Source: Halobaculum magnesiiphilum
Lineage (GTDB): Archaea; Halobacteriota; Halobacteria; Halobacteriales; Haloferacaceae
Direction of reading: 5' to 3'
Assembly (NCBI RefSeq): GCF_019823105.1
Contig: NZ_CP081959.1
Coordinates: 124,001-188,000 of the forward strand
Length of the DNA stretch: 64,000 nt
The translations under genes and the position numbers were made by a program. Below the pieces are notes generated by a model, which was not told the origin of the DNA, searched no databases, and saw only the letters and a list, made by a program, of their open reading frames with translations. Within the stretch, counting starts at the first letter, position 1. The number at the start of each line of letters is the position of its first letter. Positions 11,710 to 35,069 of this stretch are shown here, piece by piece.

Positions 11710-11761
11710 ATTACAGGTTAACAGTGACGCGTCTAAAACTCTAGCCTTTGTGAACCGTCGG

Positions 11762-12376: not shown

Positions 12377-12465
12377 ACATTGTGTTACAAACGTACTTGT
12401 GTAACTCTTTCTGTTCACTCCCGAAGAGTTAAATAGAGAATCCAGGTATGTGCTACCGTAGCACC

Positions 12466-12924: not shown

Positions 12925-13019
12925 CTCAACATGTCTGACTGTTGCTCAAAATTCATCCTGATCAATCCCGATCTAAGAGAAACATTTATTATAATCACTT
13001 CGGCACTGTATGACGCACC

Positions 13020-14306: not shown

Positions 14307-14368
14307 ACGATTTCGGCTGCGGCAACCTCACCAGTAGGTATAAGCCCAGTCGACGTTCAGTTTGGGGT

Positions 14369-15247: not shown

Positions 15248-15304
15248 TCAGAGTGAACTATGCCATGACCGACACCCATTTGTAAGACGCCGGGAACCGG
15301 TTTT

Positions 15305-15724
15305 ATGCGTATGTCGGAGAATGTAGACCAGCAGATGGAGGAGTACTTTGAGACGATGCCGTTCCTCAATCGGATTGGCATCGAAGAAGCGACGGTGAAA
15401 GATGGGGTGGCCGAATTCCGAGTCCCCTATGAGGAAGGGATCACGAATCATACTGTTGTTCACGGCGGCGTCATGGCTACACTTGTCGACGCCACCGTGG
15501 CAGGCGCGATCCATAGCGACGCAGAAGCCACCCTCGACGAGATGGAGCCACTAACGATCAATATGGACGTCAACTATCACGCCCCTGTAACAGAGGGCGA
15601 GATCGTCGCTCGTGCGGAACTCGTCCAGCGAGGAGGGACAATCGCAGTCGGTGAGGCTGAGATCCACAATGAAGGTGAACTTGCCGTGTCGGGTCGCGCG
15701 ACCTACTTCCAGAAGTGGGAATAG
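15305..15724 (+). CDS. PaaI-type hotdog thioesterase
   Basis: 139 residues (an ATG at 15311 would give 137). TNHTVVHGGVMATLVDATVA is the hotdog-fold active-site helix of the PaaI family, followed by INMDVNYHAPVTEGEIVARA. PaaI enzymes hydrolyse CoA esters of phenylacetate-type or other aromatic acids, often to free CoA from dead-end products. The next gene encodes an acyl-CoA ligase, so the pair would form and release an aromatic CoA ester. Confidence 0.85.
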   Translation: MRMSENVDQQMEEYFETMPFLNRIGIEEATVKDGVAEFRVPYEEGITNHTVVHGGVMATLVDATVAGAIHSDAEATLDEMEPLTINMDVNYHAPVTEGEIVARAELVQRGGTIAVGEAEIHNEGELAVSGRATYFQKWE

Positions 15725-15785
15725 GGTTCACTCTGAGCAACCAGCAGAACACTTTTACCGAAAGTTGCCAAGATATTCATTAATC

Positions 15786-17366
15786 ATGAACATGGGAGAG
15801 GCTTTCGAACGGACGGCAGAGCGAACGCCGGACGCAGTCGGACTTGTTGATCCGGAATCGGACGTCCGATACACCTATCGAGAATGGTTTGAAGAGAGCG
15901 TCGAACTAGCAGCAGCGCTGCAAAAACACAGTATCGGAACTGGTGATCGTGTCGCCGCAGCGATGCGGAACCGAGCCGAACTGGCCACGTTATACACAGC
16001 GACTCAACTGATCGGTGCAGTGTTTGTTCCGTACAACTTCCGCGTCTCGCCGGAGGAACTATCGTACCTACTCGAGAGTGCGGCGCCGGATGTACTTGTT
16101 GTCGCTGATGAGGTTACGGAGACCGTCAAATCGATGACTCACGAGTTTGACGCAGACCTCATCACAGTCGACTCGGATGTGCCCGGTGCGATGACTTACA
16201 GGTCACTTCGTGACACGGGCCGTAACTCTAAGTTCGAACCGACGTATGTGGACGCGACCAAACCGAGCCTAATTCTTCACACTGGTGGCACGACTGGAGA
16301 CCCAAAAGGCGTCCCAAGAAGCCATGAGAACACACATGCGGCCGCGACAGCTCATGCGATTCAGAATTCCTGGTCGCTCGGTGAGTCGACGCTCGGCCTA
16401 ATGTCGTTGTCGCACACTATGGGTATCCACACCCTTGCAACGACGATCCTCCTCGGTGGTAAGTGGATCTGTCAATGCCGGTTCTCAGCTGGTGAGACTG
16501 CCGATCTGATCGAAACAGAAGAGATCACGAGTCTCTATCTGGTTCCAACAGTGTTCCACGACCTCCTGCAGTCGGACATCGCGTCGGAGTCAGATCTTTC
16601 CTCGGTCGCGCACGTGACATACGCTGGATCCAACATGGGTCCAGCAACCGTTCGCGAAATTCAGGCCCAGTTCGATCCTGAGACCTTTGTTAACCACTAC
16701 GGCAGCACGGAGGTGTACACGCACGCTATCTGTGACTTGGTGTCCAAGAAGCCGAATTGCGTGGGATATGCCGGGATCAACACTACGGTTCGTGTCGTCG
16801 AACCAAGTGACTACGGTGGTCCGAATCCGACCGCGACCGTCGGCCGCGAGTCGCTCGGCGAGATTATTGTTGACGCGACCTCTCCGGAGGCGTTCGACGG
16901 ATACCTCACAGAAAATAGAGATGACGATGTTCTCGTCGACGGCTGGTTCTTCACGGGGGATTTGGGATACCGGGATGAAGACGGTGACTTGTTCTTCGTT
17001 GGCCGTGTCGACGACATGATCATCAGCGGCGGCGAAAACATCTACCCAATCGAAGTCGAAACGGTCTTGGAAGGACATGAGGCTGTCGCGGAGGCCGCAG
17101 TCGTCGGACGACCCAGTGAACGGTGGAACCAGGCGGTCACCGCATTTGTTACCCTCGCTAACGATCCCGAGGTGGTCAATTACGAGGAGATTGTCAATGC
17201 CCTTGACGAACACTGTCGGAACAGCGCCGACCTGGCCAACTTCAAACGGCCGCGAAAGTACTTCTTCATCGATTCGTTCACCAAGAGTAACGTCGGGAAA
17301 ATACTGCGGAAAGAGTTACAACAACGGGAGCTAGATGTTGACGTGCATCACGTAGTCGATGTTTGA
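15786..17366 (+). CDS. Acyl-CoA synthetase (ANL superfamily), copy 1
   Basis: 526 residues from the ATG at 15786. ILHTGGTTGDPKGVPRSH (P-loop, residues about 163-180), NHYGSTEVYTH (A5), FFTGDLGYRDEDGDLFFVGR (A7-A8), IISGGENIYPIEVE and the C-terminal KSNVGKILRKEL with the catalytic Lys are all present. It makes a CoA ester from a carboxylic acid and ATP. A TATA-like CTTTTACC sits about 30 bases upstream. A close paralog lies at 21456 on the other side of the molybdenum hydroxylase genes. The substrate is probably the aromatic acid brought in by the BenE-like carrier. Confidence 0.88.
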   Translation: MNMGEAFERTAERTPDAVGLVDPESDVRYTYREWFEESVELAAALQKHSIGTGDRVAAAMRNRAELATLYTATQLIGAVFVPYNFRVSPEELSYLLESAAPDVLVVADEVTETVKSMTHEFDADLITVDSDVPGAMTYRSLRDTGRNSKFEPTYVDATKPSLILHTGGTTGDPKGVPRSHENTHAAATAHAIQNSWSLGESTLGLMSLSHTMGIHTLATTILLGGKWICQCRFSAGETADLIETEEITSLYLVPTVFHDLLQSDIASESDLSSVAHVTYAGSNMGPATVREIQAQFDPETFVNHYGSTEVYTHAICDLVSKKPNCVGYAGINTTVRVVEPSDYGGPNPTATVGRESLGEIIVDATSPEAFDGYLTENRDDDVLVDGWFFTGDLGYRDEDGDLFFVGRVDDMIISGGENIYPIEVETVLEGHEAVAEAAVVGRPSERWNQAVTAFVTLANDPEVVNYEEIVNALDEHCRNSADLANFKRPRKYFFIDSFTKSNVGKILRKELQQRELDVDVHHVVDV

Positions 17367-17381
17367 CGTGACGGACGCCAC

Positions 17382-18266
17382 ATGTATCCACGCAAGTTCG
17401 AACACGTTTCGGTGCGGACCGTCGAAGAAGCTCTCGACGCGCTCGAAACGTACGACGATGCGGAACTGCTCGCGGGGGGGCAAAGTCTCGTGCCACTCCA
17501 GAAAACGAGGTTTGCCTCGCCGGACTACCTCATCGACATCACGGACATCGAAGAACTTCGGTATGTCGAGGAGGATGAAAACGAAGTACGAATCGGTGCG
17601 CTAGCGAAACACACCGATATCCAGCAAGCCAATCCGATTCAGGACCACGTTCGGCTGTTCAGCGAGTGTATCGGAGAGATCGCCGACTGGCCCGTTAGGA
17701 ACCAGGGCACGTTCGGCGGAACGCTCGCCGAAGCAGATCCCTCCGGAGATTACCTTCCAGTTATGAAGGTGTTGAACCCTACGATTGAGTTGACCGGACC
17801 GGAGGGTAACCGGGAGGTCCCCTTCGAGGAATTCTACTTCGGGATGTTCACCGTCGACATGGATGACGAGGAGATCCTGACCGGCGCACGGTTACCGAAA
17901 CTCCAATCGCTCGTTCCAGATGCTGTAGCTGTTGGGAGTGCGTACGAAAAACACGCCGAGCGATCGGGAGATTACGCCCTTGTGGGTGTCGCGATAGTTG
18001 TGGGAGTTGACACAGACGGACTCGTGACAGAGGCAAGGGTAAGCGTTGGCGCTGTCGGACCCCTTGTCCGCGTGACCGACGCAGAGTCGGTCGTCAAAGG
18101 AACGACGCTTGACGAGGACGCGCTCAACGCAGCAGCGACGGCTGTAGAGAAGACAGTTCAACCGGATGAGGAGGGCTCCGAAGGGGAGTACAAGGAAGCA
18201 ATGGCAGGAGAGTTCGCGAAGCGTGCGCTGAGCAGTGCTTACGATCGAGCAACGGAGGAGCTATGA
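17382..18266 (+). CDS. Molybdenum hydroxylase FAD-binding subunit (CoxM/CutM type)
   Basis: 294 residues. FAD motifs LLAGGQSLVPLQKTR (residues about 30-44) and RNQGTFGGTLAEADPSGDY (about 107-125) are intact, followed by the C-terminal CO dehydrogenase flavoprotein domain. It takes electrons from the iron-sulfur subunit. It starts 15 bp after the ligase and its last codons overlap the start of the iron-sulfur gene by 4 bp, so the three subunits are co-translated. Confidence 0.9.
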   Translation: MYPRKFEHVSVRTVEEALDALETYDDAELLAGGQSLVPLQKTRFASPDYLIDITDIEELRYVEEDENEVRIGALAKHTDIQQANPIQDHVRLFSECIGEIADWPVRNQGTFGGTLAEADPSGDYLPVMKVLNPTIELTGPEGNREVPFEEFYFGMFTVDMDDEEILTGARLPKLQSLVPDAVAVGSAYEKHAERSGDYALVGVAIVVGVDTDGLVTEARVSVGAVGPLVRVTDAESVVKGTTLDEDALNAAATAVEKTVQPDEEGSEGEYKEAMAGEFAKRALSSAYDRATEEL

Positions 18267-18880
18267 CCGACGACACACCAACAACGACTGTATCGGTGAC
18301 AATCAACGGGGAAGAGTACGTCCGGGAGACGGAAGATCGGCGACTTCTCGTTCATTTCCTACGTGAAGAGGTGGGACTGACAGGAACGCATCAGGGCTGC
18401 GTTGTCGGCAAGTGCGGTGCGTGTACCGTTTTACATAACGGTGTTCCCAAGAAGTCCTGTATGCTGTACGCCGCCGCGGTCGATGAAGACGAAATCACGA
18501 CCGTCGAGGGACTTGCAAAACGCGCAGAAATGAACGGGGTCGCCATGAAAACCCGTGAAGGAACGACGTTCCACCCGCTCCAAATGGGATTTAAGCAGAA
18601 CCATGGCCTCCAGTGCGGATTCTGCACACCCGGGTTCCTTATGACAGCCACAGCTCTGCTTCGAGAGAATCCAGATCCAACCCGAGAGGAAATAAAGTCC
18701 GCTATCTCAGGGAATATCTGTCGGTGCACGGGCTACACCTCGATCGTCGACAGTATCGAGTGGGCTGCGGCCCGACTTCGCGAGGATGAACCAGCGGTAG
18801 CCGACGGAGGGATCGACTCAACCCCCTGTGAAGGGTGTAACTGTGAAATCGCAGACGATGTCGAGGGAAACGATGAGTAA
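18263..18880 (+). CDS. Molybdenum hydroxylase [2Fe-2S] subunit (CoxS type) with Cys-rich tail
   Basis: 205 residues. The N-terminal ferredoxin-like domain carries GCVVGKCGACTV and a fourth Cys in KKSCMLY; the C-terminal helical domain carries CGFCTPGF and ICRCTG, so both [2Fe-2S] sites are complete. About 160 residues is the usual length; here a tail adds STPCEGCNCEIADD, with three closely spaced Cys, not part of the family core. It overlaps the flavin subunit gene by 4 bp and the large subunit gene by 8 bp. Confidence 0.9.
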   Translation: MTDDTPTTTVSVTINGEEYVRETEDRRLLVHFLREEVGLTGTHQGCVVGKCGACTVLHNGVPKKSCMLYAAAVDEDEITTVEGLAKRAEMNGVAMKTREGTTFHPLQMGFKQNHGLQCGFCTPGFLMTATALLRENPDPTREEIKSAISGNICRCTGYTSIVDSIEWAAARLREDEPAVADGGIDSTPCEGCNCEIADDVEGNDE

Positions 18881-21326
18881 CGCCCTCGACCGCCAAGAGG
18901 AATCGGAGGCGGATGCTGACTCGACCGCGGTCGGAGAACCCATGGGTCGTCGTGAAGATGACCGCCTCCTACGCGGCGAAGGAAAGTATATGGACGACTT
19001 TGAGCCGACTTCGAATCTCCATCACGTGGCCTTCCTCCGGTCTCCGGTTGCTCACGGCGAGATCGACGATATCGATACCACGGCCGCAGAACGCCGTGAA
19101 GATGTGACGTGTGTCCTTACGGGCGCAGACATCGCAGAGCAGATGGATCCCTTCGCAGTCGGTGTCCAGAATCCGCCCGAGTACTACCCGCTAGCTGTTG
19201 ATAAGGTCAGATACGACGGCGAGCCTGTGGCAATGGTTGTAGCGACGACCAAGTACGGTGCGACCGACGCGCTGGAAGATATTGTCGTCGACTATACGCG
19301 ACTGGATCCGGTTACCGACGAACTCGAAGCACTGGACGACGATTCTCCTCAGATCCATCCCAGTGGAAATTGCGCCAACTACCGCGAATTGGAGTACGGT
19401 CCTGTTGACGAAGCCTTCGAACGTGCGGACCACGTTGTCGAACGAGAGTTCGAATTCCCCCGATATACGAGTGCGCCAATGGAGACGTACGGAGTCATTG
19501 CCGAGTACGACACAGCTCGTGACGGCGCGACTGTGTGGTCAAACTTCCAAGGCCCATTCACAATGCATCCTGTTGTTGCGGGCGCATTGGGGATGTCAGA
19601 GGCGGATCTACAGTTCAAGGTACCATCCGACAGTGGAGGAAGTTTCGGTGTCAAGGCGCATATTTACCCCTACATCGCGGCAGCAGTGATAGCCTCACGC
19701 GAGGCCGGTGCACCAGTCAAGTGGATCGAAAGTCGAAGAGAGCACCTTCAGGCAAGCGCGTGTCACACGGATCGGACTCAACGTATGCGTGGCGCGGTAT
19801 CCGAGGAGGGCGATATCCTAGGCGTCTGGGTCGACCTCTACGACAACTTTGGAGCATACGTTCGTGCTCCAGAGCCAGGTAACACGTTCCGTCCGCTCGG
19901 GAATTACGTGAATGCGTACGACTTCGACGCTTTCGGTGGGGAATTCCGCGCGGTTCAGACGAACAAATGCCCAGCTGGGCTAAATCGGGGTTACGGCTGT
20001 CACCAGTACTACTTCGGTCTTGAAAGACTCATAGACTGCATGGCTGATGTCGTCGGCATGGACCCGACTGCGTTCCGCGAACGGAACTTTATCGACGAAG
20101 ATGAGTTCCCATATCGGACACCGACAGGCGGAGAGTATGACAGCGGACGCTACAGCAAAGCACTCCAACGGGCGAAAGAACTCTTCGAGTACGAGGACTA
20201 TCTCGGCCGGCGTGACCGGGCACGAGCGAACAACCGGTACATAGGAATCGGTTGTGCGGCGATCATCGACCCGTCGGCCTCTAATATGGGATACGTTTCG
20301 GTGGCCCTCCCGCCGGAAGAGCGTGAGAAGGGGCACCCCAAGTCGGGTGCCGTCAGTGCTGTCACGATGATGGTGCAACCCGACGCGAGTATAGTGGTCG
20401 AACTCGATTCCGCTCCGAGCGGACAGGGACACGAGACGACCGCCTCCCAAATCGCGGCTGATGAACTAGGAGTCGACCCGGAAGCAATCACCGTCGTTTC
20501 GGGCATGGACACAAGCGAGAAAGCGTGGAGCGTCTCATCGGGAAGTTACTCCTCACGATTCGCCACGGTCGGTCACAGCGCTGTCAAGAACGCGAGCGAG
20601 CAAATCGCCGAACAGATGCGACGTATCGCGGCCGTAATATTGGATGTCGATCCCGTGATGATATCATTAGAAGACGGTCGTGCACACGGGCCCGACGGTG
20701 GCGCGATATCTATCAGAGAGATCGCGGGGACGGCTCACTGGAATCCATCGAAACTCCCGGACAATATCGAACCCGGCCTCCGAACCCAGCACACGTTCAG
20801 CATGGACGACTCAAGGCCGATTGACGAAGATGATCGGATCAACTCTTCAGGTTCATACGGATATGGGGTGCAACTCGTTGCAGTCGAGGTGAACAAGACA
20901 ACCGGCGAAATAGACATCCTCGATTACGTCGCAGTTCACGACTGCGGAACGATCGTTAATCCCAAGATCGTAGATGGCCAAGTGGAAGGAGGGATCTTCC
21001 ACGGGTTAGCAGGGAGTCTCTATGAGGAGCTTAGATATGACGACAGTGGGACACTCCAAACGGACACATTCATGGATTACGCCGTCCCGACCGCAAAGGA
21101 GGCGCCGGACGTAACGACTGACCACATCGAAACCCCGTCCCCGAAGACACCGATGGGATCGAAGGGAACCGGGGAGGCGGGAACTGAGGGTGCGCCCGCA
21201 GCCATCGCGAACGCCGTCAACGACGCGCTCGATCCGCTTGGCGTGGAAATCACATCGCTCCCGCTCAAACCACCTCGCGTGTGGTCGCTCATCGAAGAAG
21301 CAGAGGGCGAGAAGAGCAGCGACTGA
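18873..21326 (+). CDS. Molybdenum hydroxylase large subunit (xanthine dehydrogenase family)
   Basis: 817 residues from the ATG at 18873. MGRREDDRLLRGEGKYMDD opens the family domain; SDSGGSFGVKAHIYPYIAA and the C-terminal KGTGEAGTEGAPAAIANA, which holds the catalytic Glu, are conserved. At the place where CO dehydrogenases have the Cys loop and most others have an AYRG loop, this protein reads AGLNRGYGCHQYYFGLER, so it is not a CO dehydrogenase and its substrate pocket is unusual. It should hydroxylate an aromatic or heteroaromatic carbon using molybdopterin cytosine dinucleotide. Confidence 0.88.
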   Translation: MSNALDRQEESEADADSTAVGEPMGRREDDRLLRGEGKYMDDFEPTSNLHHVAFLRSPVAHGEIDDIDTTAAERREDVTCVLTGADIAEQMDPFAVGVQNPPEYYPLAVDKVRYDGEPVAMVVATTKYGATDALEDIVVDYTRLDPVTDELEALDDDSPQIHPSGNCANYRELEYGPVDEAFERADHVVEREFEFPRYTSAPMETYGVIAEYDTARDGATVWSNFQGPFTMHPVVAGALGMSEADLQFKVPSDSGGSFGVKAHIYPYIAAAVIASREAGAPVKWIESRREHLQASACHTDRTQRMRGAVSEEGDILGVWVDLYDNFGAYVRAPEPGNTFRPLGNYVNAYDFDAFGGEFRAVQTNKCPAGLNRGYGCHQYYFGLERLIDCMADVVGMDPTAFRERNFIDEDEFPYRTPTGGEYDSGRYSKALQRAKELFEYEDYLGRRDRARANNRYIGIGCAAIIDPSASNMGYVSVALPPEEREKGHPKSGAVSAVTMMVQPDASIVVELDSAPSGQGHETTASQIAADELGVDPEAITVVSGMDTSEKAWSVSSGSYSSRFATVGHSAVKNASEQIAEQMRRIAAVILDVDPVMISLEDGRAHGPDGGAISIREIAGTAHWNPSKLPDNIEPGLRTQHTFSMDDSRPIDEDDRINSSGSYGYGVQLVAVEVNKTTGEIDILDYVAVHDCGTIVNPKIVDGQVEGGIFHGLAGSLYEELRYDDSGTLQTDTFMDYAVPTAKEAPDVTTDHIETPSPKTPMGSKGTGEAGTEGAPAAIANAVNDALDPLGVEITSLPLKPPRVWSLIEEAEGEKSSD

Positions 21327-21455
21327 CCGAGGAAGACGATTCAGTGGGTTATCTAATTTGGAACAAGCGTATGTCTGTAACACAAGTTGTATTTCAGCGG
21401 AATGTTTTTAATGGACTCCCTCGTGTGAATCATCAACGTCGTGCGAGAGTCAAGC

Positions 21456-23042
21456 ATGCACATGGGAAGAGTCTTTCAGCGATCAGTCGAACGGAATCCA
21501 AATCGAACCGCTGTCGTCGATCCCGATGAGGGTGTCGAGTACGACTACAACGATTGGAACGAGCGTGTCGATCAACTAGTAGAGGGATTGGAAGACCTCG
21601 GCGTCGGTCCTGGCGATCGCGTGGCCGTGGTTATGCAACCACGTGTTCAAGCGGGAACGATCTACTGGGCGGTGCAGAAGATCGGTGCAGTGTTCGTACC
21701 TTTCAATATTCGGGCGGCTGCCGACGAGTTGACGTTCCTAGTGGATAATACAGATCCGGATGTGATCATCTACTCCGAGATCGGCCGTGAGGCGATCGAC
21801 GGAGCACACGAATCGTTTGATTCGGATATCAACCTCGTCTACATTGACGAGGATATTCCAACGTACGCTTCGCCCTACGAGTCCGTGCTGGCTGAAGATG
21901 CGGAGCCGCATGAACCGGCTTCGGTCGAACCGGATACGACGAGCATCATTCTACACACGAGCGGTACAACAGGCCAGCCAAAGGGTGTTCCGCGAACGCA
22001 CACGAACACGTACACTGCGGCGAAGGCACATGCGATTCAGTCACAGTGGGTCGACGGGGAGCGGACGCTTGGGCTTATGCCGATATACCATACCATGGGG
22101 ATTCGGTCACTCGTCACAACCATGATCCTCAGCGGCACGTGGGTAGCTCAACGTTCGTTCTCACCTGAACAAACCGCTGATCTGATCGAGTCAGAGGAGT
22201 TGACGAGTCTTTATCTGGTCCCAACAGTGTTCCACGACCTGGTAAAATCCGAGGCCATCGAGGGTACGGACACATCCAGCGTCGAGCGGTTGGGATACGC
22301 CGGCACTCCGATGACCAAATCCGTTGAGGCCCAAGTGAGGAACACGTTTGAACCAAGCGTCTTCGTCAATCACTATGGTAGTACAGAGGTGTACACCTAT
22401 AGTGTCTGTTCGTGGATCGACGAAAAATCAGGATCAGCTGGCCGCGCAGGGATCAACACGCGAGTACGCGTTGTAGACGCAAAGCGCGACGAGGCAGTCG
22501 ATCCGGAACGTACCGTTGACCCGGGAACGCTCGGCGAGATTATCGTCGATGCAACCTCTCCGGAGGCGTTCGACGGATACCTTGATCGCCCAGATGCAAC
22601 CGAGCAGGCGTTTGTGGATGACTGGTACTTCACCGGGGACCTTGGTTATCGAGATGAGGATGGCGATCTGTTCGTCGTCGGTCGAGTTGATGATATGATC
22701 ATCAGCGGTGGCGAGAACATCTATCCAGTGGAAGTTGAGAACGTGCTCGATGGACACGAGGAGATCGACGAGGTAGCAGTGGTCGGCCTCGAGGACGAAC
22801 GTTGGAACCAGGTAGTCACTGCCTTTGTGACCGTTCCCGGATCCCAGCCAACAGGTCTTTCGGAACTGGCCGAACGGCTCGATGACTACTGTCGCGAAAG
22901 TTCTGACCTAGCCGACTTCAAGCGACCGCGTAAATATGTCTTCGTCGATGAGATCGTTAAGAGTAATGTAGGAAAGGTGCTACGACGAAAACTTGGAATC
23001 GATGACCTCGATGTAACCGTCTACGCGAACGTCAACGTATAA
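21456..23042 (+). CDS. Acyl-CoA synthetase (ANL superfamily), copy 2
   Basis: 528 residues from the ATG at 21456, chosen because copy 1 starts with the same short block (M-MG--F-R--ER-P); a GTG at 21441 is possible. ILHTSGTTGQPKGVPRTH, NHYGSTEVYTY, YFTGDLGYRDEDGDLFVVGR and KSNVGKVLRRKL show a complete enzyme. Large blocks are identical to copy 1, so the two are a recent or strongly constrained duplication flanking the hydroxylase genes. Different acids, such as substrate and hydroxylated product, may be activated. A TATA-like stretch lies at 21403-21410. Confidence 0.88.
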   Translation: MHMGRVFQRSVERNPNRTAVVDPDEGVEYDYNDWNERVDQLVEGLEDLGVGPGDRVAVVMQPRVQAGTIYWAVQKIGAVFVPFNIRAAADELTFLVDNTDPDVIIYSEIGREAIDGAHESFDSDINLVYIDEDIPTYASPYESVLAEDAEPHEPASVEPDTTSIILHTSGTTGQPKGVPRTHTNTYTAAKAHAIQSQWVDGERTLGLMPIYHTMGIRSLVTTMILSGTWVAQRSFSPEQTADLIESEELTSLYLVPTVFHDLVKSEAIEGTDTSSVERLGYAGTPMTKSVEAQVRNTFEPSVFVNHYGSTEVYTYSVCSWIDEKSGSAGRAGINTRVRVVDAKRDEAVDPERTVDPGTLGEIIVDATSPEAFDGYLDRPDATEQAFVDDWYFTGDLGYRDEDGDLFVVGRVDDMIISGGENIYPVEVENVLDGHEEIDEVAVVGLEDERWNQVVTAFVTVPGSQPTGLSELAERLDDYCRESSDLADFKRPRKYVFVDEIVKSNVGKVLRRKLGIDDLDVTVYANVNV

Positions 23043-23089
23043 TCGCGCATCTCGTGTATGATCGGTCGTAGTGGCGGGATTTAGCTGTG

Positions 23090-24211
23090 TTACCGTGGAT
23101 GGATGGGACCGTCCTGCTTCGAGAGGGGTCTCCCACTGCCACCATTGTGGGCTGCAAGTAGCTCTCCAACGATGCTGAATGCGATCGCCATTGGCTCGTC
23201 CCCACCAAGGTCCAATCCCACAGGGGCAGCGATCCGATTACTGTCCACGTCGATAGGTAGCTCGTCGGTTAGTTGACGAAACCTCTTTTCTGGACCCATT
23301 ACACCGATATAGTCGACTTCAGTCTCTAATAGTGACTCTAGTGCGAGTCGATCGTCTACGAAATTATGCGACATGACGATCGCATAGGTGTGGTCCGGCC
23401 GAGTGACATGATCGCCTACATCCGACGGTCGCGTCGCCGTAACCTCACTTGCGGAGGGAAACCGCCCTGGGTCCGCGTTACCGCCGCGAGCAGTGTGTAA
23501 GTGGACATCAAACCCCGCGCTGTTTGCCAAGTTGACGACCGGTCCCGCGTCTGGCTGGCCACCGAAGAGAAGTAGTCTGGGTGCCGGTTCGAAGCGGTCG
23601 ATAAGTATGCGAACTGGATCACCATCTATTGAGATTTGAACAGTTCGAGTTTCCGGTGCAGAGAAGTCTTCTCCAGACGATCTGACGGCATCAACAATGT
23701 GTGAAGGGAGTCCGCGAACACTGGGAATGACTGATTCATTCTCCCCCATGACTGCTCGGTCACCAGCGACCGTACTGGACACCGAGGACTCGAGAGTCGT
23801 GATAACGGTCATGGAACGCCCCGATTGAAGTTCGTCTACGACTGGTTGATAACTCTCGTCTATCGGTTCAACCAACAGTTCAACAACGCCGTTGCAGCCA
23901 AGACCGAGCCCCCAAGCGTCGGGATCATCGCTGCTCGTAAGGTCGTACGTTTGGATGTGTGGCTCACCCTGATCAAGTACCGTGGCCGATAGTTCCACGA
24001 CAGAATCCTCAAGACATCCAGCCGTCACTGCTCCCGCTACTGAACCCTTTGGTTCGACGACCATTTTGGCACCCGGACGACGATACCCGGATCCTTCAAC
24101 CGATATGACGGTCGCAAGTGCAGCCTCCCGATTCGTCGAAACGATCTCCGCGATTGCGTCATGTATGTCTGAACTAGTCGCACTCCACGGACTATCTGGT
24201 GATGTGGGCAT
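23090..24211 (-). CDS. XdhC/CoxF-family molybdenum enzyme maturation factor
   Basis: 373 residues. The N-terminal XdhC domain has ATVISVEGSGYRRPGAKMVV, GAVTAGCLEDSVVE with the conserved Cys, and GLGCNGVVELLVEP. The C-terminal Rossmann domain has LLLFGGQPDAGPVVNLA, HTYAIVMSHNFVDD, YIGVMGPEKR and PVGLDLGGDEPMAIAFSI. XdhC proteins sulfurate and insert the molybdenum cofactor. The gene converges on the second ligase gene with 47 bp between stops, so it closes the cluster on the other strand and has its own promoter near 24250. Confidence 0.87.
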   Translation of the reverse strand: MPTSPDSPWSATSSDIHDAIAEIVSTNREAALATVISVEGSGYRRPGAKMVVEPKGSVAGAVTAGCLEDSVVELSATVLDQGEPHIQTYDLTSSDDPDAWGLGLGCNGVVELLVEPIDESYQPVVDELQSGRSMTVITTLESSVSSTVAGDRAVMGENESVIPSVRGLPSHIVDAVRSSGEDFSAPETRTVQISIDGDPVRILIDRFEPAPRLLLFGGQPDAGPVVNLANSAGFDVHLHTARGGNADPGRFPSASEVTATRPSDVGDHVTRPDHTYAIVMSHNFVDDRLALESLLETEVDYIGVMGPEKRFRQLTDELPIDVDSNRIAAPVGLDLGGDEPMAIAFSIVGELLAAHNGGSGRPLSKQDGPIHPR

Positions 24212-24449: not shown

Positions 24450-24985
24450 ATGCCTGAAGAGCGGTCCCGTCGGTTTATATTATCGATATCGGCTACGCTC
24501 GGTGGGAGTATCCTCGCAGGCTGTAGGCAGCCGTCTACCGACAACAGCGATGAGACACGTATACAGTCGACTCAGGACACAACGACAACAGGCGCAGAAT
24601 CAGATACTGCAGCCGATCAAGCTGCGATCATCGAAGCGACGCTCGACCAAACGGATCTCGTTCAGGGAGAGTCGATTTCAGTAACTATTGACATCGAGGG
24701 TACGGGAGATGAGGAGCTCACTCGTACCCTTCCGTTGTCTGTCAATGGCCAGCAATTGGAATCGCAGAAGGTAACGCTCACCCCCGGTGAGACAACTCAA
24801 ATCAAATTAACAACTACACCACCTGACACGGGGACTCAAACTGTCACGGTCGGTGACCAAGAAGTTGGGACAGTCGTCGTTCGAGCAGTAAAACCTGACA
24901 CTGTCCGAGATGTCGGAGCGCATTACTATCCGTGGTACGGAGCGCGATTACACAGTTGGAACGATGGAGAGTGGAGTCTCGAGTC
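24450..24985 (+). pseudogene. Truncated Tat-type lipoprotein with start of a GH99-like domain
   Basis: The N-terminus RSRRFILSISATLGGSILAG followed by Cys is a Tat signal with a lipobox. A Thr-rich linker and an immunoglobulin-like domain (residues about 55-150; LDQTDLVQGESISVTIDI) follow. DVGAHYYPWYGARLHSWND then opens what looks like a glycoside hydrolase family 99-like domain. At about 24985 the sequence changes into the reverse complement of an integrase gene. The frame goes on by chance to 25394 with Arg/Pro-rich nonsense. The catalytic domain is thus lost. Confidence 0.6.
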
Positions 24986-25976
24986 GCCGAGCCCATGCTG
25001 GGAGCCGTGGCTCGCCGCCCTCTGTAATCCCGCTCTCAGACGGCAGCCGCTTCAACAGCGTCCGCGCGCCGGTGGTCGACAGCGCCGGCGGCGTCAACTC
25101 GTGCTCCCGGAGGAGCGACCACACGGTGTCCTTTGCGGTCTCCGCCACGACGCCGTCGGCCTCGCGGACCGCGTTGTACAGGCTCGGCAAGTGGGCGGTC
25201 GGGAAGACAGGCCAGTCGTCGGTCGGCGGATCCTGCCGGCGGCGGTGCGCTCGCAGGCGCTCTACTCCAGGGTTCAACAGCGGCGACCGCTGCCATTCCT
25301 GGCTCTTGCCGTAGACCCGGAGGACGCCCTCATCGAGATCGATGTCGCGCCACCGCAACCCGCTCCGGCGCGTGTTCTGGGGGTCGCGGAATAACTCCGA
25401 ACCTCGCGCCCCGGAGTAGGCGAGCGTCGCAACGATCGCGCGGTCGCGGGTCGCCCGATCTGCGTCGAGCCAACCATGGTCGATCGCGTCCTCTGTCCGC
25501 AAGTCCATCCACCGGACGTCGACTCGCGCGTCGTTACACTCTAGAACTGCTGGTCGTCGTCCCCACTTACACCGACCGACGGGTCGGAGAGGCGTCTTCG
25601 GCCACCTCCGACGCGGCGGGGTTTGACTCGAAGGCGTCGCGATCGACGAGGAACGTTCAGAACGAGCGGACGAGCGCGTAGTACTGGTGGGCCGTTCGCC
25701 CGGTGATCCCCGCGTCCGGGTCCTCCTCGCGAGCCCACGACCGCCTGGCGAGGTGGTCGGCGTACTTTCGAGCCGCCGCTGGCCGATATCTCGGACGTCC
25801 TCGGCGCCGCGGCGTTGCGCTCGCTCGACGAAGTCGCCGACGACAAGATGGACCTCCCCCCGGTCTCGTCCGGAATCGCCTTCGCCACGTGGCCGACTAA
25901 TGCGTCGAGATCACCCTCCAGACTCGTGGATGCCCGGACTCGACCCGTGAACCCCTGATTCCGTCTTCGGTAGCCA
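24986..25976 (-). pseudogene. Tyrosine recombinase (integrase), frameshifted and missing its C-terminus
   Basis: Read leftward in changing frames, the region gives an N-terminal SAM-like domain (VVGDFVERAQRRGAEDVRDI, ITGRTAHQYYALVRSF) and part of the catalytic domain (DRAIVATLAYSGARGSELFR, LRWRDIDLDEGVLRVYGKSQ, LTPPALSTTGARTLLKRL). At least four frame changes or stops are needed between 25976 and 25500; the part 25508-24986 is in one frame. The sequence ends before the His-Arg box and the Tyr nucleophile, at the junction with the lipoprotein fragment. It is a dead relic. Confidence 0.75.
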
Positions 25977-26571: not shown

Positions 26572-26979
26572 TTATTTGTCGCCAAGTTGCGATAGCCGAG
26601 CCTGAATTTCCTCAGCATCCGCATCAGAGAGCGCCTCAACACCGAACTGGACGAGTAACGGGTAGAAGTGGCGGTTCTTCTTGAATTCGTCCTGGCCCGC
26701 TTTTCGGAGCTTTAGCTGGGACTCGAGGTAAGTATCCTCCATCTCGACGAGGACCTCGTCCGGGATGTAGATCGTCCGCCCATTCCACTCGTCCTTGATG
26801 TTTGTCTTCGTTTCGTTCGTTTCGTTCGTTTCGTTCGTTTTATTCGTTGTTGTCGATTCTGTCGTTTCGGTTGTTTCGGTCGATGAACTGGTTTCCACTG
26901 TTTCACTGGAATCAGCCTCATCGTCCTCCGCTTCGTAGTTGCCCTCGATACCGGAAGCATCGCCCCAGCCGTCAGTCAT
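26572..26979 (-). CDS. ParA partner, ribbon-helix-helix-like centromere-binding protein
   Basis: 135 residues. The N-terminal half is acidic and low-complexity, ending in tandem Asn-Glu-Thr units (three perfect NET copies) and Thr/Glu variants. The C-terminal part, GRTIYIPDEVLVEMEDTYLE then KNRHFYPLLVQFGVEAL, has a strand-helix-helix pattern like a ribbon-helix-helix DNA-binding domain. The start overlaps the parA stop (ATGA), so it is the second gene of a parA operon, as in type Ib partition systems. It is the candidate binder of the 9-bp repeats upstream of parA, and the DNA coding its NET repeats carries the same repeat motif. Confidence 0.65.
   Translation of the reverse strand: MTDGWGDASGIEGNYEAEDDEADSSETVETSSSTETTETTESTTTNKTNETNETNETKTNIKDEWNGRTIYIPDEVLVEMEDTYLESQLKLRKAGQDEFKKNRHFYPLLVQFGVEALSDADAEEIQARLSQLGDK
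26808..26880. repeat. 9-bp tandem repeat inside the ParA partner gene
   Basis: GTTTCGTTC is repeated in tandem three times at about 26818-26844, followed by degenerate 9-bp units. On the coding strand the unit reads AACGAAACG, that is Asn-Glu-Thr. The unit has the same TCGTT core and 9-bp phase as the array at 27796-28215, so it may be both protein repeat and DNA-binding site. Confidence 0.6.
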
Positions 26980-27794
26980 GCTTCCACCTTCTCAGGCGCT
27001 GTCTTCTCGAATGTCTCATCGAACAGGTCCGCAATCTCATTGAACAGTTCGCGGGCATCCTCAACGCGCTGATTCTCTTTGCCGAAGCCGAAGACAGACA
27101 CACCTTCGCCGATCGACTGGGAGAGATCGGTACGCTTCGGAATCTCGAAAATCGGGAGCGAATACGCCGATTTAATCTCCTCGATGGTGTCGCGATGTTC
27201 AGCGTTCTGCTCGACGCGGTTGCAGACGATTGCGAGCCGATTGATGTCTCCGTATGCCTGTTCGAGAGAGCTCAGCTGCTTTGCGAAAATCTGGAGACTG
27301 TTGGCATTGAGTTTCTCGGGAATGACGGGGATGACGACATTGCCTGTCGCGACGAGAGCGTTGTCGGTGAGAACGTTCAGGGAGGGCGGCGTGTCGACGA
27401 TGATGTAGTCGTAGTCATCATTGAGTTCGTCGAGGGTCATCTCCAGTCGCTCTCGACTCTTCGGCGCCTCGAGCAACGTCTGGATGTTCTTGTTGTTCGC
27501 GAGCTTCTCGCTCGCGGGGAGAATATCAAACTCCTCGTGTTCGACGATGATATCGTTCACCGACTCCATCTGATCGAAATCCAGCACGTCGAATAGCGTT
27601 GTGCGGTCGGTGTCGTAATACAGGTCGTTGTAGCCGAGTGAGCAGGTGAGACCTCCATGATAGTCGATATCGACCAGGAGGACTTCGTGTCCCCGGTCGG
27701 AAAGTGCACCGCCAGTATGAATGACATCAGTCGTCTTCCCCGCGCCTCCTTTCTGATTCGCTACAGTGATTCGTGCGGTATTGGTGTCGGTCAT
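26976..27794 (-). CDS. parA: ParA-family partition ATPase
   Basis: 272 residues. The deviant Walker A motif NQKGGAGKTTDVIHTGGAL lies near residues 13-31, DIDYHGGLT follows as Walker A', and DYIIVDTPPSLN is Walker B. It lacks a long N-terminal DNA-binding domain, as in type Ib ParA proteins. It moves replicon copies by cycling on the nucleoid with a centromere-binding partner, here probably the downstream gene. The promoter region is replaced by a repeat array that begins two bases before the ATG. Confidence 0.9.
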   Translation of the reverse strand: MTDTNTARITVANQKGGAGKTTDVIHTGGALSDRGHEVLLVDIDYHGGLTCSLGYNDLYYDTDRTTLFDVLDFDQMESVNDIIVEHEEFDILPASEKLANNKNIQTLLEAPKSRERLEMTLDELNDDYDYIIVDTPPSLNVLTDNALVATGNVVIPVIPEKLNANSLQIFAKQLSSLEQAYGDINRLAIVCNRVEQNAEHRDTIEEIKSAYSLPIFEIPKRTDLSQSIGEGVSVFGFGKENQRVEDARELFNEIADLFDETFEKTAPEKVEA

Positions 27795-27795
27795 T

Positions 27796-28215
27796 TCTTT
27801 CGTTTAGCTCGTTGAGTTCGTTTCGTTCGTTATTGTCGTTCTGTTCGTTTGGCTCGGTGAGGGTATTTCGCTCGGTGAATGGATTACTACGATGTTAAAA
27901 CCAATTGTTCGTTACGCTCGTTGAAGCAAATACACTCGTTTTAATCAACACATTCGTTCTGTTCGTTACCTTCGTTTCTCTCACCCTGGTCATCGAATAC
28001 AGCGCAACCAGGTCAGCCTAAACCCGTTCGTGCCTCGGAATGCGTTCGTTTTGTTCATTTTAATCATATCTCTCGTTTCATTCATCGAGTAAGGGCAACC
28101 AACCCATCCTCAACGAGTTCGTTCCACAGAATTCGTTCAACATTTTCGTTATTGCTCATTCTGATCGTTCAGTTCGTTTTGTTCGTCTAGTTCGTTTAGT
28201 TCGTTACACTCGTTA
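27796..28215. repeat. Array of 9-bp-phased TCGTT repeats, likely partition centromere
   Basis: TCGTT and close variants recur at a 9-bp spacing in four blocks: about 27796-27879, 27905-27980, 28024-28090 and 28112-28215, more than 20 copies in all. The array lies between the leftward parA operon and the rightward gene at 28325. Short-phased direct repeats upstream of parA are the usual centromere of ribbon-helix-helix partition systems. A few more copies lie at 29872-29892. The pattern is seen; the function is inferred. Confidence 0.65.
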
Positions 28216-28324
28216 CAAGTGTTCCGACAGGGCCACAGCCACCATCGAGACGTATAGATAGTTCGTGCTTCATAGTCAGTCAAGTGAGATTTTTAAGAGT
28301 TACCGGATTATTGGTAACCACCAG

Positions 28325-28972
28325 ATGTATGAGGTGCTCGACGATACGGCGGCACAAACTATCCTCGCCATCGAGAGTGGAGACTCCATCCGTCGTGTTG
28401 CCCAAAACCTCCACACGCCCTACGAGACGGTGAGACAGGCCGTCAATCGGCTCGAAGACGCAGGCTACGTTACCTATGACAACGGTCTCAGTGTCGTCAA
28501 CGAACACGTACGCGACGCAGCCCACGAGCTCGTTGCTGCCAGCGCCGGCGTCAGTCCACCCTCCATCGAGGAGGCATACGTCATCCCACAATTCGGCTAC
28601 TGGCCATTCGCATTCACCCGGATCGACGCCGTCTACGTGTGGACCCAGGGCGGCTACCAAGTTGGGCGGAATCCGGATGACTATCCGCTGTTCCTCGCTG
28701 TTCGTGAGCAGGACATCGACGCTTGGGAGGCGTTCATTGAGTCCTTCGACCTCCCAACCGCAGTCGAGCGACAGCCCGGAGACGAACTGGACGGTCCGCT
28801 GCAGATCGTCCTCGAGCCACGCACATCACTCGATATCGAGCACGTCGAAGGGTACCCGGTGATCCCGAGAGCAGAGACAATCGAGTATATGCGTGAGAAC
28901 TCTGCCCAGTTCCAGTCGGGGCTCGAGATGCTCGACCGAATGTACGAGGACCTCAAGCTCGACGTCACGTAA
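28325..28972 (+). CDS. Winged-helix transcriptional regulator next to the partition locus
   Basis: 215 residues from the ATG at 28325; an upstream frame to 28265 adds an unlikely leader. The N-terminus is a helix-turn-helix (GDSIRRVAQNLHTPYETVRQ, residues about 19-38; AVNRLEDAGYVTYDN). The remaining 140 residues form a mixed alpha/beta domain (YVIPQFGYWPFAFTRIDAVY, IQYM-like end) that I do not recognise as ligand-binding. The layout resembles haloarchaeal plasmid regulators. It reads away from the repeat array and may control it or the parA operon. Confidence 0.7.
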   Translation: MYEVLDDTAAQTILAIESGDSIRRVAQNLHTPYETVRQAVNRLEDAGYVTYDNGLSVVNEHVRDAAHELVAASAGVSPPSIEEAYVIPQFGYWPFAFTRIDAVYVWTQGGYQVGRNPDDYPLFLAVREQDIDAWEAFIESFDLPTAVERQPGDELDGPLQIVLEPRTSLDIEHVEGYPVIPRAETIEYMRENSAQFQSGLEMLDRMYEDLKLDVT

Positions 28973-29834: not shown

Positions 29835-29928
29835 CTAAGCAGCACCCCAATTCTGAAAACGAGATCGTTGTATTCGTTACGCGAAACGAACAAAACGAAT
29901 TCACTGAACCGGTTGCGACGGTCGCCGA

Positions 29929-31056: not shown

Positions 31057-31200
31057 ATTGACCTCCTCCCGCGCCTTCAGGCGCGGGAATCCCGCCACGG
31101 GATTTCAGGCCGAGTGCGGCCCTGTAGTTTCAAGACGCATACGTTCCAAGCGTCTCCTGCTGGGGTTCAGCATCAGCTTGGCTGTCTTGTGGGGCGGTCA
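31057..31200 (-). ncRNA. Predicted omega/re RNA of TnpB
   Basis: TnpB systems make their guide RNA from the 3' end of tnpB and the right end of the element. The 8-bp-stem hairpin at 31068-31087 would be the scaffold next to the guide, and the guide itself would start in the flank to the left of 31057 (TTAGATCGCGTTC on the minus strand). The 5' limit is a guess. Confidence 0.4.
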
Positions 31201-32368
31201 AACGCCCCCCATCCTCAGCCGAGTCATCGTCGTTCTCGTGTTCTCTGGAACGACTCTCTCCGCTGAGGTAGCGATCCGCGATGTTCACCGCTCCGTTCAC
31301 GTCCGCTTGGTACTCGCCTACCCAACACGCGTCGTTCGTACATTTGAACGTCGCCTGCTTCGGACGATACCCCACCTCACCGCACGCGTGGCACTCCTTC
31401 GACGTGTTGCGAGGGTTCACCGTCTCCACAAGGATGCCCTTCTCGGCGGCCTTGTACCGGATCTGTGCGTGGAGTTTCGCGAATCCCCAACCGTGGAGAC
31501 GGCGATTCATGTACTCGCCGTAGTCCATCGACTCTCTGATGTACGTCAGGTCTTCCAGAACCAATACGGGGTTCTCGACGGACTCCGCGTACTCCACGAC
31601 TTCGCGGGTGACGCGGTGGAATACGTCGTCGATCTGGTTCCACAGATCGTCACCGAACGAGTCAGCGAGCCGCTCGCTTCCGCGAGTTTGAAGTCGCCTC
31701 GTAGCGGTGAAGTAGGTCTTGCGAAGCCGACGAACGGTCTTCCCCTCCTCGGCCCACAGTTCGGGAGCGGTCGGAGAATCACAGTCGTCGCGGTGACACA
31801 CCGTGACGAGCGACGCTTCTCCAATATCGACACCGATGGGCGTCCGGTCTTCGGCGGACGCCTCGGAACCAACTTCCACGTCACGGGTGGCGGTGACGTG
31901 GAGATACCACGCCCCGTCCCGCTCGAATAGCCGACTCTCGCCCATCTCCGCGTTGCCAGCGTTCAGCGCCTCCAACCAGTCCCGCTGCTCAGGATTTGGT
32001 TGTGCTGGCATCCAGAGGTGGTAGTCTTCGTGGTGCGGGATTTTGACGTACCACTCGATTGCGTTCCCGGGCTTGTGGTCGAGGCGTAGCCCTTCGTTGG
32101 TGAAGCGAACGGGGTGGTCGTCGTGAAGTTCGCCCGCGTTGTACGTCGTCGTGAGTTGCGGGACGTACTTCTTGAGCGCGTTCTTCGCGTACCCGCTCAG
32201 GTCGTAGTCAACCACTACGTCGTTCGCTTCGGTCTGCGTGGTACAGCGGGCGTCGAAGGCGTCGTGAAGCGCCTGCTGGTACGCCTTTCGCGTCTCTCGG
32301 AGTTTCCTCCGCTTGTGAGCGTTCGGCTCTACCAGTTTCAGCTCCAGCGTCTTCGTGAGTTCGGTCAC
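31130..32368 (-). CDS. tnpB: TnpB RNA-guided nuclease (IS200/IS605)
   Basis: 412 residues from the GTG at 32368, which overlaps the tnpA stop. RuvC catalytic residues are present: Asp in PIGVDIGEASLV, Glu in VLVLEDLTYIRE and Asp in YQADVNGAVNIAD. A zinc ribbon (ECHACG, then CTNDAC) lies between the last two. The N-terminal helical part is complete. The C-terminal 45 residues are acidic and vary in the family. It should cut DNA guided by the right-end RNA and help to keep the element. Confidence 0.9.
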   Translation of the reverse strand: MTELTKTLELKLVEPNAHKRRKLRETRKAYQQALHDAFDARCTTQTEANDVVVDYDLSGYAKNALKKYVPQLTTTYNAGELHDDHPVRFTNEGLRLDHKPGNAIEWYVKIPHHEDYHLWMPAQPNPEQRDWLEALNAGNAEMGESRLFERDGAWYLHVTATRDVEVGSEASAEDRTPIGVDIGEASLVTVCHRDDCDSPTAPELWAEEGKTVRRLRKTYFTATRRLQTRGSERLADSFGDDLWNQIDDVFHRVTREVVEYAESVENPVLVLEDLTYIRESMDYGEYMNRRLHGWGFAKLHAQIRYKAAEKGILVETVNPRNTSKECHACGEVGYRPKQATFKCTNDACWVGEYQADVNGAVNIADRYLSGESRSREHENDDDSAEDGGRLTAPQDSQADAEPQQETLGTYAS

Positions 32369-32754
32369 GAATCTCCCTCCTCGTGTTGCTGGATGTAGTT
32401 CGTGATCGTCTCGCTGGAGACGTGGCCAGCTGTTCCTGCGTAGTAGCCTCTCGCCCACTTGATCTTCTCGCCGTCGTGGTCGGCGTGGCGATGGTTGTAC
32501 TTCCGCGAACTGATGCCTTTGAACCAGTTGGCGAGAAGCGAGGGGGCGTGTTTCGGCGGGCTACTGACGACCAGGTGGATGTGGTCGGGTTGTACGGTCA
32601 GGTCGAGAACTTCGAGACCCTTGTCGTCGGCTATCTCGTGAAGGATGGTTCGCACACGGTCTGCGACCTCGTTGACGAGTACCGAGTTCCGGTACTTCGG
32701 CAACCACACTATGTGGTAGTTGAGGTTGTAGGTCGCGTGCCGTGTGGTCTTCAT
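32365..32754 (-). CDS. tnpA: TnpA Y1 transposase (IS200/IS605)
   Basis: 129 residues from the ATG at 32754. HUH motif QPDHIHLVVSSP at about residues 55-66, and the Tyr nucleophile in ITNYIQQHE near the C-terminus. It catalyses single-stranded peel-and-paste transposition. Length and motifs are normal. It overlaps tnpB by 4 bp. Confidence 0.9.
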   Translation of the reverse strand: MKTTRHATYNLNYHIVWLPKYRNSVLVNEVADRVRTILHEIADDKGLEVLDLTVQPDHIHLVVSSPPKHAPSLLANWFKGISSRKYNHRHADHDGEKIKWARGYYAGTAGHVSSETITNYIQQHEEGDS

Positions 32755-33027
32755 CCGTATCACACACTATGCTTCTGTTGTGTGTTAAAACTACTGTAGC
32801 AGGTGGGAAATCCGGCTGTAGTGTCGCCGGTGGATGTGTACGCTATTGTCCGCTTGATCCCCGCCTGAAGACGGGGGTATGCGCTCGTAACTCTATCAGG
32901 GAAAGGAAGCCAGGCAGCGATCGACCCAGTTGTATATCGAGGACATCACCTCCTCTGTTGGACCCATCCCCCTACTGTTCAGGTGTCTCAATAGTGTGGC
33001 AAAACCAAAACAACTCTAGTTTTGGAT

Positions 33028-33136: not shown

Positions 33137-34531
33137 CTACCGCGACAACCGCTGTAGAACAGCCTGGCGCATCTCAGCATCAAATCGAAGCTCGCGGAGC
33201 CGGGATTCAGCCCCGACCGACCGGAGGATGAGGGAGGGATCGTCAAGGAGTTCGAGCCAGAGTGCATTCCCACTCGCGTAGCCGTCACCAGTTCGTTCCA
33301 TCGAGAGGAGTTTCATGGTGTCGTACTCACGCAACAGGTCAGTGACGTATCGTTGTGTGTGTGCCTCTGCATCGATATCGTTCGCGAAGAGTTTGTAGAC
33401 AGAGTGGACCTCGCCGGCTTTGAACTCGGTCACGTTGTCGTTCGTCACCTCGCTAAGCGCAGCAAGTGCCGTGAGCGCGATCTGGACCTGCGTCGGTGTG
33501 CCATCGATAAGATCCTGGATCCGAGAGACATCCGTATCATCGTTGGCGGCCCGGACGTGGTTCTCGGTTACTTGATCAGCACCGGTATCTCGAGCTATCT
33601 CGCCGGCTAGCCGCAGGAAGTCGATCGCTCGGCGGGCGTCGCCGTGGTCCTGAGCCGAGAACGCAGACGCGAGCGGGATCACGTCATCAGTGAGCACATC
33701 GTCGTGGAATGCATCACGTCGTTTCTCGAGGATATCACGAAGTTGGTTCGCGTCGTAGGACGGGAAGACCTCTTCCTCGGGGGCGAACGACGACTCGACG
33801 CGCGTATCAAGCCGATCGCCGTATTTGAGGTCATTCGAGATTCCGAAGATCGTCAATCCGGCATCGATGTTTTCCATTTCGCCTGCTCGCGAAAGTTCAT
33901 ACAACAGTTGGGAGTCATCGGCGTCCTGGTGGCGTGTGGCCGACCCCATCTCCTCTTGTGGTGAAAGTCGGTCGAGCTCGTCGAGGATAATGATAATGGC
34001 GTCGTACAGTTCGTCGACGATTCGCCACAGCCGATCATAGTAATCGCCGGTTGCGATCCCCTTCAGCGGGATCGAGATGTCGGTTGCCTGCGGATCGTTG
34101 AGCTGGTTCGCGATATCGATCACGGCTTGCGTCTCCGAGCGGCGCTGGCGGCAGTCAACAACCGCGCGGCCGACACGGACGTCGTTGTCAGCTGCCCGTC
34201 CCTGGACCTCGCGACTCACGTAGCGCGTGACGAGTGTTTTCCCGGAGCCGCTTTTCCCGAGGACAATGGTACCTTTCCCGGAGTTCCCCTGCTGGGCCGG
34301 CTTCATCCGTTGAGCGATCGCCTCGATTTGTCGGTTGCGGCCGACGATCTTCCCGGCATCGGGGATATGCTCGATCCGAAGGATCGACTCATCACGGAAT
34401 ATCGGGTCCTCCTCGTCGAGCACCGATAGCGGATCATCCCGTTCGGGCCGCTGTTGTGGCGTAGCAACGCCGTGCTCGTCGGCGTAGTCACCGAGGGTGT
34501 TGAACTCGCCCTCGGAGACGCTGTCCGTCAT
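33137..34531 (-). CDS. Orc1/Cdc6 replication initiator
   Basis: 464 residues from the ATG at 34531; a TTG at 34546 would run into an origin box. AAA+ motifs: GTIVLGKSGSGKTLVTRYVS (Walker A), AIIIILDELDRLSP (Walker B), FGISNDLKYGDRLDTRVES (sensor 1 region), HGDARRAIDFLRLAG (sensor 2). A C-terminal winged helix follows (about 370-464). It should bind the boxes in the adjacent origin and load the MCM helicase. It reads away from the origin, as is usual for haloarchaeal plasmid initiators. Confidence 0.92.
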   Translation of the reverse strand: MTDSVSEGEFNTLGDYADEHGVATPQQRPERDDPLSVLDEEDPIFRDESILRIEHIPDAGKIVGRNRQIEAIAQRMKPAQQGNSGKGTIVLGKSGSGKTLVTRYVSREVQGRAADNDVRVGRAVVDCRQRRSETQAVIDIANQLNDPQATDISIPLKGIATGDYYDRLWRIVDELYDAIIIILDELDRLSPQEEMGSATRHQDADDSQLLYELSRAGEMENIDAGLTIFGISNDLKYGDRLDTRVESSFAPEEEVFPSYDANQLRDILEKRRDAFHDDVLTDDVIPLASAFSAQDHGDARRAIDFLRLAGEIARDTGADQVTENHVRAANDDTDVSRIQDLIDGTPTQVQIALTALAALSEVTNDNVTEFKAGEVHSVYKLFANDIDAEAHTQRYVTDLLREYDTMKLLSMERTGDGYASGNALWLELLDDPSLILRSVGAESRLRELRFDAEMRQAVLQRLSR

Positions 34532-34534
34532 GAG

Positions 34535-35069
34535 ACCGGTGTTCAAATGAAATCGACTTAGCTCTTGCCCTTACCACGAAGAGTCCCGTTAAACCAGTGG
34601 ATGCTGTCGCTCAGTGGTTCGGGGATGTGACCACACCGACGTTCAAATGATACGGCCATTATACACCACTGTTCAAATGTAATCAGTCGACAAGCGTCCC
34701 GAGATGGCTCGTTGGGGTGAATTGCACGGTCCGCTGTGGCTGGTGTCTTGGGAGGACACACACACACCACTGTTCAAATGATATGGGTCGAATGGGTGGC
34801 GGGTAGTGTTTCGGTCGGGTCAGGGACGGTACTCGATGGTTTACGGAGTATCCGATAGAGCAGGACGGGTACTCACTCAGCGGTGACGACTCGCGTATAT
34901 TATATAACTAGGTGAACCAGTAAAGTAGTAGTAAGTGAATAGTCGTTTCAGATGCTCTAGCGTCTTTCCTATAGAGTGTTGTTGTTATATTAACACTACT
35001 TTATATTCTAGGCGTGATTCACCGGCTATTCGGGGTCCTCCAGATGAGATTTCATTTGAACAGTGGTGT
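34535..35069. other. Replication origin with Orc boxes and AT-rich unwinding region
   Basis: Four boxes in minus orientation lie next to orc1 (34535-34552, 34633-34652, 34663-34682, 34764-34783; core GTTCAAATGA with a GGTGT-type element) and one in plus orientation at 35050-35069. Between 34890 and 35020 the DNA is very AT-rich (TATATTATATAACTAG, TTGTTATATTAAC). Inverted boxes around an AT-rich core next to orc1/cdc6 is the standard haloarchaeal origin layout. No gene lies in this stretch. Confidence 0.8.

Follow-up and report, generated by a model that had tools for sequence, protein, structure and literature searches.

A two-gene locus on contig C2 (271,515 bp) of the Halobaculum magnesiiphilum genome (3.73 Mb, four contigs) is probably a ParA-type partition locus of haloarchaeal plasmids and haloviruses, in which a small partner protein would bind 9-bp direct repeats that act as centromere and operator, and in which the DNA encoding the linker of this partner would form a second tract of binding sites. 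The locus lies within a window of 64,000 bp, by which we mean the whole stretch of DNA that was analysed (bases 124001-188000 of the contig), and its features, in window coordinates, are as follows.

26572..26979, minus strand: partner gene of parA, encoding a putative centromere-binding protein (135 aa) without a Pfam, NCBIfam or PDB match, described from PHROG matches, AlphaFold models and its conserved adjacency to parA.
26799..26884, minus strand: in-gene array of 9-bp units (AACGAAACG...) from which the NET/TET linker of the partner is translated; unit and orientation agree with those of the upstream array.
26976..27794, minus strand: parA, encoding a Walker-type ATPase of the ParA/Soj family (272 aa, KGGAGKTT; Pfam AAA_31, 6.8e-36, and CbiA; Soj/ParA relatives in the PDB).
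27795..27876, minus strand: proximal array block, located after the TATA-like element and before the parA start, with AACGA units and degenerate CACCGA units.
27894..27902, minus strand: probable TATA box of the parA operon, GGTTTTAAC (a GGTTTTAA element), near-invariant in 40 aligned upstream regions and about 100 bp before the start codon.
27903..27980, minus strand: middle array block, upstream of the probable promoter.
28040..28220, minus strand: distal array blocks, with clusters at 28046-28077, 28119-28150 and 28165-28214.

Judged by its sequence, which includes a Walker A motif and the signature lysine, the product of 26976-27794 is a bona fide ParA-family ATPase. Its gene overlaps that of the partner by 4 bp, and the pairing is retained across lineages when homologous loci are compared. 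Several hallmarks of type I partition are seen together here, namely a Walker-type ParA, a gene for a small putative adaptor in the same operon, iterated repeats beside the operon and an extrachromosomal location. Rfam and tRNA scans gave no matches. As a separate observation, ParA proteins of the window family carry DIDYHG where relatives show DLDPQG, next to the second conserved Asp (window 27669-27700).

According to the original prediction, more than 20 copies of TCGTT (AACGA on the parA coding strand) fill about 420 bp upstream of parA at a strict 9-bp step. The abundance is confirmed: 27800-28214 contains 23 copies, where about 1.0 would be expected for 420 bp. Elsewhere in the window no 420-bp stretch has more than nine, and the one with nine is the linker of the partner. 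The strict step, on the other hand, does not hold: 14 of the 22 successive steps measure 9, 18 or 27 bp and the remainder are either inter-block gaps of 46-74 bp with shifted phase or half-steps of 4+5 bp, and the array therefore consists of several 9-bp-phased blocks without a single register. When distances between AACGA pairs are pooled over 37 homologues, 9 bp (296 pairs), 18 bp (235) and 27 bp (184) stand far above distances that are not multiples of nine. The triple unit AACGA-N4-AACGA-N4-AACGA, with up to two mismatches, occurs 26 times in the window, compared with 0.19 times in shuffled sequence, and all but three of these matches fall in the array or in 26799-26884; with up to one mismatch, it occurs 24 times in the 3.7-Mb genome, 18 of them in the parA locus. 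The proposed spreading along the operon found no counterpart, as ordered sites were seen neither between the array and the linker nor elsewhere on the replicon. Following the earlier suggestion to look for the repeat upstream of related parA genes, an array was found at each of the close relatives studied (some 40 loci in many genera, with a ParA of 88% identity or higher), with 11-22 copies of AACGA in the 600 bp upstream, where 1-2 are expected, always on the parA coding strand; upstream of ParAs of about 40% identity the AACGA array is absent. In an alignment of 40 upstream regions AACGA is held, with the spacer bases drifting.

Within the partner gene the same unit, on the same strand, is read as Asn-Glu-Thr (AAC GAA ACG), and the suggestion that these protein repeats are built from the 9-bp unit of the array is thus borne out. 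The consensus around ACGA is AACGARYRR in upstream arrays and linkers alike, and the linker in the window matches the proximal array block in a gap-free alignment of about 75 bp that takes in degenerate units. Codon choice in the linker is strongly skewed: in 56 distinct linkers of the window family, Glu directly before Thr is encoded by GAA 295 times and by GAG nine times, as opposed to 114 GAA and 193 GAG for the other Glu residues of the same linkers, and Thr is encoded by ACG in 65% of cases in linkers versus 32% in ParA and the C-terminal domain, although these counts pool kindred sequences and their p-values thereby overstate independence. The direction of this bias is the one that a constraint acting on the DNA predicts.

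The relationship between linker and upstream DNA extends to diverged lineages, which were sampled in a first set of 30 with C-terminal domains no more than 75% identical to one another, including partners of 22-40% identity. Nearly all diverged partners have a low-complexity linker with a three-residue period, and when linker DNA is compared with itself, identity reaches 0.46 at lag 9, as opposed to 0.31 for lags 6 and 12 (p=1.9e-9; 27 of 30 lineages); a peak at lag 9 is also seen in the 300 bp preceding parA (p=1.3e-7; 30 lineages). The best ungapped match of each linker in its own 450 bp upstream was compared with those of 1000 synonymous recodings of the linker that follow the codon usage of the locus. 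The natural linker beats its recodings at p<0.01 in 11 and at p<0.05 in 16 of the 30 lineages (Fisher 2.4e-17), whereas control matches of linkers to parA coding DNA reach significance in none (Fisher 0.985) and those of C-terminal-domain DNA to the upstream region show a weak excess (1/30 at p<0.01, Fisher 0.005). Linkers also favour their own upstream region over those of other lineages (permutation p=1e-5). Because the pattern was first spotted by eye in this set and tested afterwards, a held-out test was run on eight new lineages by an identical procedure save for a relaxed Walker-motif filter; four of the eight, which as a group include some loci fetched earlier that had remained unparsed in the first set, reach p<=0.002 (Fisher 4.4e-7; parA control 0.31). 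Examples are L144, with GTTCCAAACGTTCCAAACC in both linker and upstream region, L164, with GATAACACAGATAATCTG in both, and the halovirus ChaoS9 (L177), in which 48 bp align without gaps and the upstream copy lies inside the first codons of parA. With no significant match in 14 of the 30 first-set lineages and four of the eight held-out ones, the feature is frequent, not universal. In ChaoS9, the 9-bp units in the first parA codons read MSETSETSEATEATETTGAP (L177 2453-2510), and both proteins therefore seem to carry site-shaped sequence.

Taken together, the synonymous-codon bias and the linker-upstream match in many diverged lineages lend strong support to the earlier idea that one sequence may act as both protein linker and predicted binding site. 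The gap-free alignments in the window (about 75 bp) and in ChaoS9 (48 bp), which include degenerate units, are nevertheless what would be expected of copies, and the roughly half of lineages without a significant match would also suit an account in which the upstream array is the centromere and operator, and the in-gene tract a non-functional, slippage-prone linker derived from, or gene-converted with, the array. We consider this account rather unlikely, as the codon bias affects only those positions from which the unit is made, matches persist after the units have changed completely between lineages, and the in-gene tract still has to code for a linker. If, as we prefer, the linker DNA is a second tract of sites, gene conversion, rather than separate selection on each, could be what keeps the two tracts alike.

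The partner has a disordered N-terminal half with a Thr/Glu/Asn/Ser-rich linker, followed by a folded C-terminal domain for which AlphaFold predicts one or more short strands and then helices 14-33 and 41-58, a monomer model that may miss a dimeric sheet. Searches of Pfam, NCBIfam and the PDB gave no family match for it, its PHROG matches are to families of unknown function only, and two AlphaFold models used in Foldseek/VIA structure searches yielded no convincing fold match, so that a ribbon-helix-helix fold is neither shown nor excluded. In the TP228 ParF-ParG system (type Ib), a small adaptor with a flexible N-terminal tail is encoded beside a short ParA, and we know of no in-gene array there. 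The partner domain shows no sequence match to ParG (hhalign probability 0.1). Type Ib adaptors such as ParG and omega have a flexible N-terminal tail in which an arginine activates ParA; the disordered N-terminus of the partner contains RADRLRRRR or SRLSRRF in many lineages, and lacks Arg before the linker in the window family. Across lineages, the unit core changes together with a conserved strand that precedes helix 1 of the partner: NGRTIY goes with an AAACGA core (window, L116, ChaoS9), NVNMYLP with CAAAGA (L075, L081, L084, phiCh1), TGRYMY with TTCCAAAC (L144, L157), TGRMVY with AGATAA (L164) and GTYMYLP mostly with CCAAAC, CCGAAC or CAAAAC. Such covariation is as a DNA-contacting strand would give.

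From these features we infer DNA binding, partition, self-repression and contact with ParA. In the proposed model, the partner is an adaptor whose C-terminal domain, probably via a DNA-contacting beta strand, would bind 9-bp direct repeats side by side, and which would contact ParA through its N-terminal part. Ahead of parA, the repeats would form the centromere and, since they flank the promoter, may also be the operator for self-repression. By analogy with the streptococcal plasmid pSM19035, the partner would coat the 9-bp units, making its N-terminal region available to ParA and repressing its own promoter. The linker within the partner gene would be a second tract of 9-bp sites in addition to the upstream array, read in frame; as three codons make one 9-bp unit, the spacing of the sites would dictate a three-residue protein repeat. 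At a distance of slightly less than 1 kb from that array, this tract would add sites that could aid building of the complex or tune read-through.

A close parallel in working is pSM19035 delta-omega-parS, a type Ib ParABS system of Streptococcus, which likewise pairs a ParA with a small adaptor and has a centromere whose short, non-palindromic repeats are contiguous and overlap the partition-gene promoters; a dimer of the adaptor binds each 7-bp repeat, and one protein, omega, is both adaptor and repressor, as the partner here may be (PMC9499535). By this analogy, the haloarchaeal locus would work like a type Ib partition system. The repeats of pSM19035 are, however, 7-bp WATCACW units in mixed orientation and not 9-bp units on one strand, omega is a proven ribbon-helix-helix protein whereas our partner has no fold match, and adaptor sites inside the adaptor gene are not described for pSM19035 in the part of PMC9499535 consulted. 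The array units flank the probable parA promoter in the window and sit between the TATA box and the start codon in other lineages, and this placement would also suit an array that is an operator for parA self-repression only, with segregation relying on another site or proceeding independently of the array. Such a restricted role appears improbable, given that about 420 bp and 23 copies are far beyond the needs of repression and that the promoter-overlapping arrays of pSM19035 do both jobs, with at least four contiguous repeats required for ParA activation (PMC9499535).

Archaeal systems offer further points of comparison with the proposed combination of centromere and operator. SegAB of Sulfolobales also consists of a ParA-like ATPase and a small site-specific DNA-binding partner (a property predicted for ours), with sites upstream of the operon and the other SegB sites mostly intragenic; these are, in contrast, 13-bp palindromes scattered over the chromosome rather than 9-bp one-strand direct repeats at one locus, and the part of the report available describes no repeat unit that shapes the linker of SegB itself (PMC12284271). 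The AspA-ParB-ParA system of the Sulfolobus plasmid pNOB8 is likewise an archaeal plasmid partition system with a small centromere-binding protein (putative in our case), but comprises three proteins (PMC5120986), whereas no third gene or ParB-like protein was found beside the present locus. Also similar are the halovirus loci phiCh1 ORF46, phiH1_265 and ChaoS9_260, with ParAs 34-42% identical, a related adjoining partner and 9-bp phasing of the linker; their repeat units differ from those in the window, and they are annotated only as partition-like, with the partner listed as uncharacterized.

Neighbouring genes were considered as members of the module and rejected: a divergent helix-turn-helix (HTH) gene (28265-28972) is kept in only 19 of 39 homologous loci, no more than five of these loci have an Orc1/Cdc6 relative at a distance of up to about 4 kb, and the other neighbours tested do not recur, and all are therefore placed outside the module. 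In the window, an Orc1/Cdc6 gene (33137-34546) is found 5.3 kb away, which would be in keeping with an array that is a set of replication-origin iterons; we regard this as very improbable because of the rarity of such neighbours, the constant company of the array with ParA and its partner, and the occurrence of the unit in the partner gene. Although the linkers are of low complexity, the idea that chance and codon or composition bias led Thr/Glu-rich linkers and an AT-rich promoter to share AACGA is scarcely credible, as synonymous recoding with the codon usage of the locus abolishes the match, control regions match little or not at all, and the match is lineage-specific (p=1e-5).

Of 392 Halobacteriales genomes sampled, 186 encode a relative of the partner (E<=0.01), in some cases only a distant one, and in a phylum-wide sample partner matches are confined to this order. 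The relatives are mostly on plasmids, with few chromosomal copies (L048, L068); 44 plasmid records carry a ParA at least 80% identical, and the distribution includes the haloviruses phiCh1, phiH1 and ChaoS9. Contig C2 itself has a second ParA locus (L002, C2:1-2724), at 439-1224, whose upstream region has a 9-bp phase of its own (lag-9 identity 0.40); compared by eye, its partner gene has units resembling those of the upstream region, with GAATCTACG CAAATTACG CAATCTACA in the gene and ATTTACGAA ATCTACGAA upstream. Two ParA loci with different 9-bp arrays on a 271.5-kb replicon suggest a cointegrate or dual partition.

Extended to the whole superfamily of haloarchaeal ParA partners, our reading would be that linker coding DNA is part of the centromere or operator, that the 9-bp spacing dictates the three-residue repeat and that linker residues shift with site specificity, a generalisation on which we are evenly divided. 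If true, a protein sequence would be set largely by DNA-binding sites in its own gene. Should the in-gene sites work, they would provide a clear case of a low-complexity protein tract that owes its existence to the protein-binding array formed by its DNA. The analysis also names candidates for a haloarchaeal plasmid-segregation adaptor and its centromere, from a family present in about half of the sampled Halobacteriales genomes and in model haloviruses, and allows incompatibility groups to be predicted from sequence. As the original prediction had supposed, the open-access literature searched describes no haloarchaeal plasmid-segregation adaptor or centromere, nor these arrays or adaptor sites inside an adaptor gene.

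Some further observations concern the surroundings of these loci. In 20 of 30 lineages (L075, L116, L118, L140, L175-L177 and others), GTCTGACR, followed a few bases on by a TTTA(T) box, precedes parA; the element is present in phiCh1, phiH1 and ChaoS9, is absent from the family of the window and resembles a promoter or regulator site common to these lineages. The window has an apparent tyrosine-recombinase fragment (24948-25508) downstream of the partner gene, and in pJ7-1 and pNG600 intact integrase-like genes directly follow the partner gene. Outside the array, AACGAACNAAACGAATTCACNGA is near-identical at window 29885-29907 and contig C3:380050-380072 and may be the end of a mobile element. 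Between parA and orc1 (31130-32763), adjoining open reading frames resemble, by eye, a TnpB-type protein and an IS200-type TnpA transposase. Finally, window 9019-24211 holds what is, also by eye, a probable purine/xanthine-type catabolic cluster, with a permease, molybdenum hydroxylase subunits, XdhC-like and MocA-like proteins and two AMP-forming ligases.
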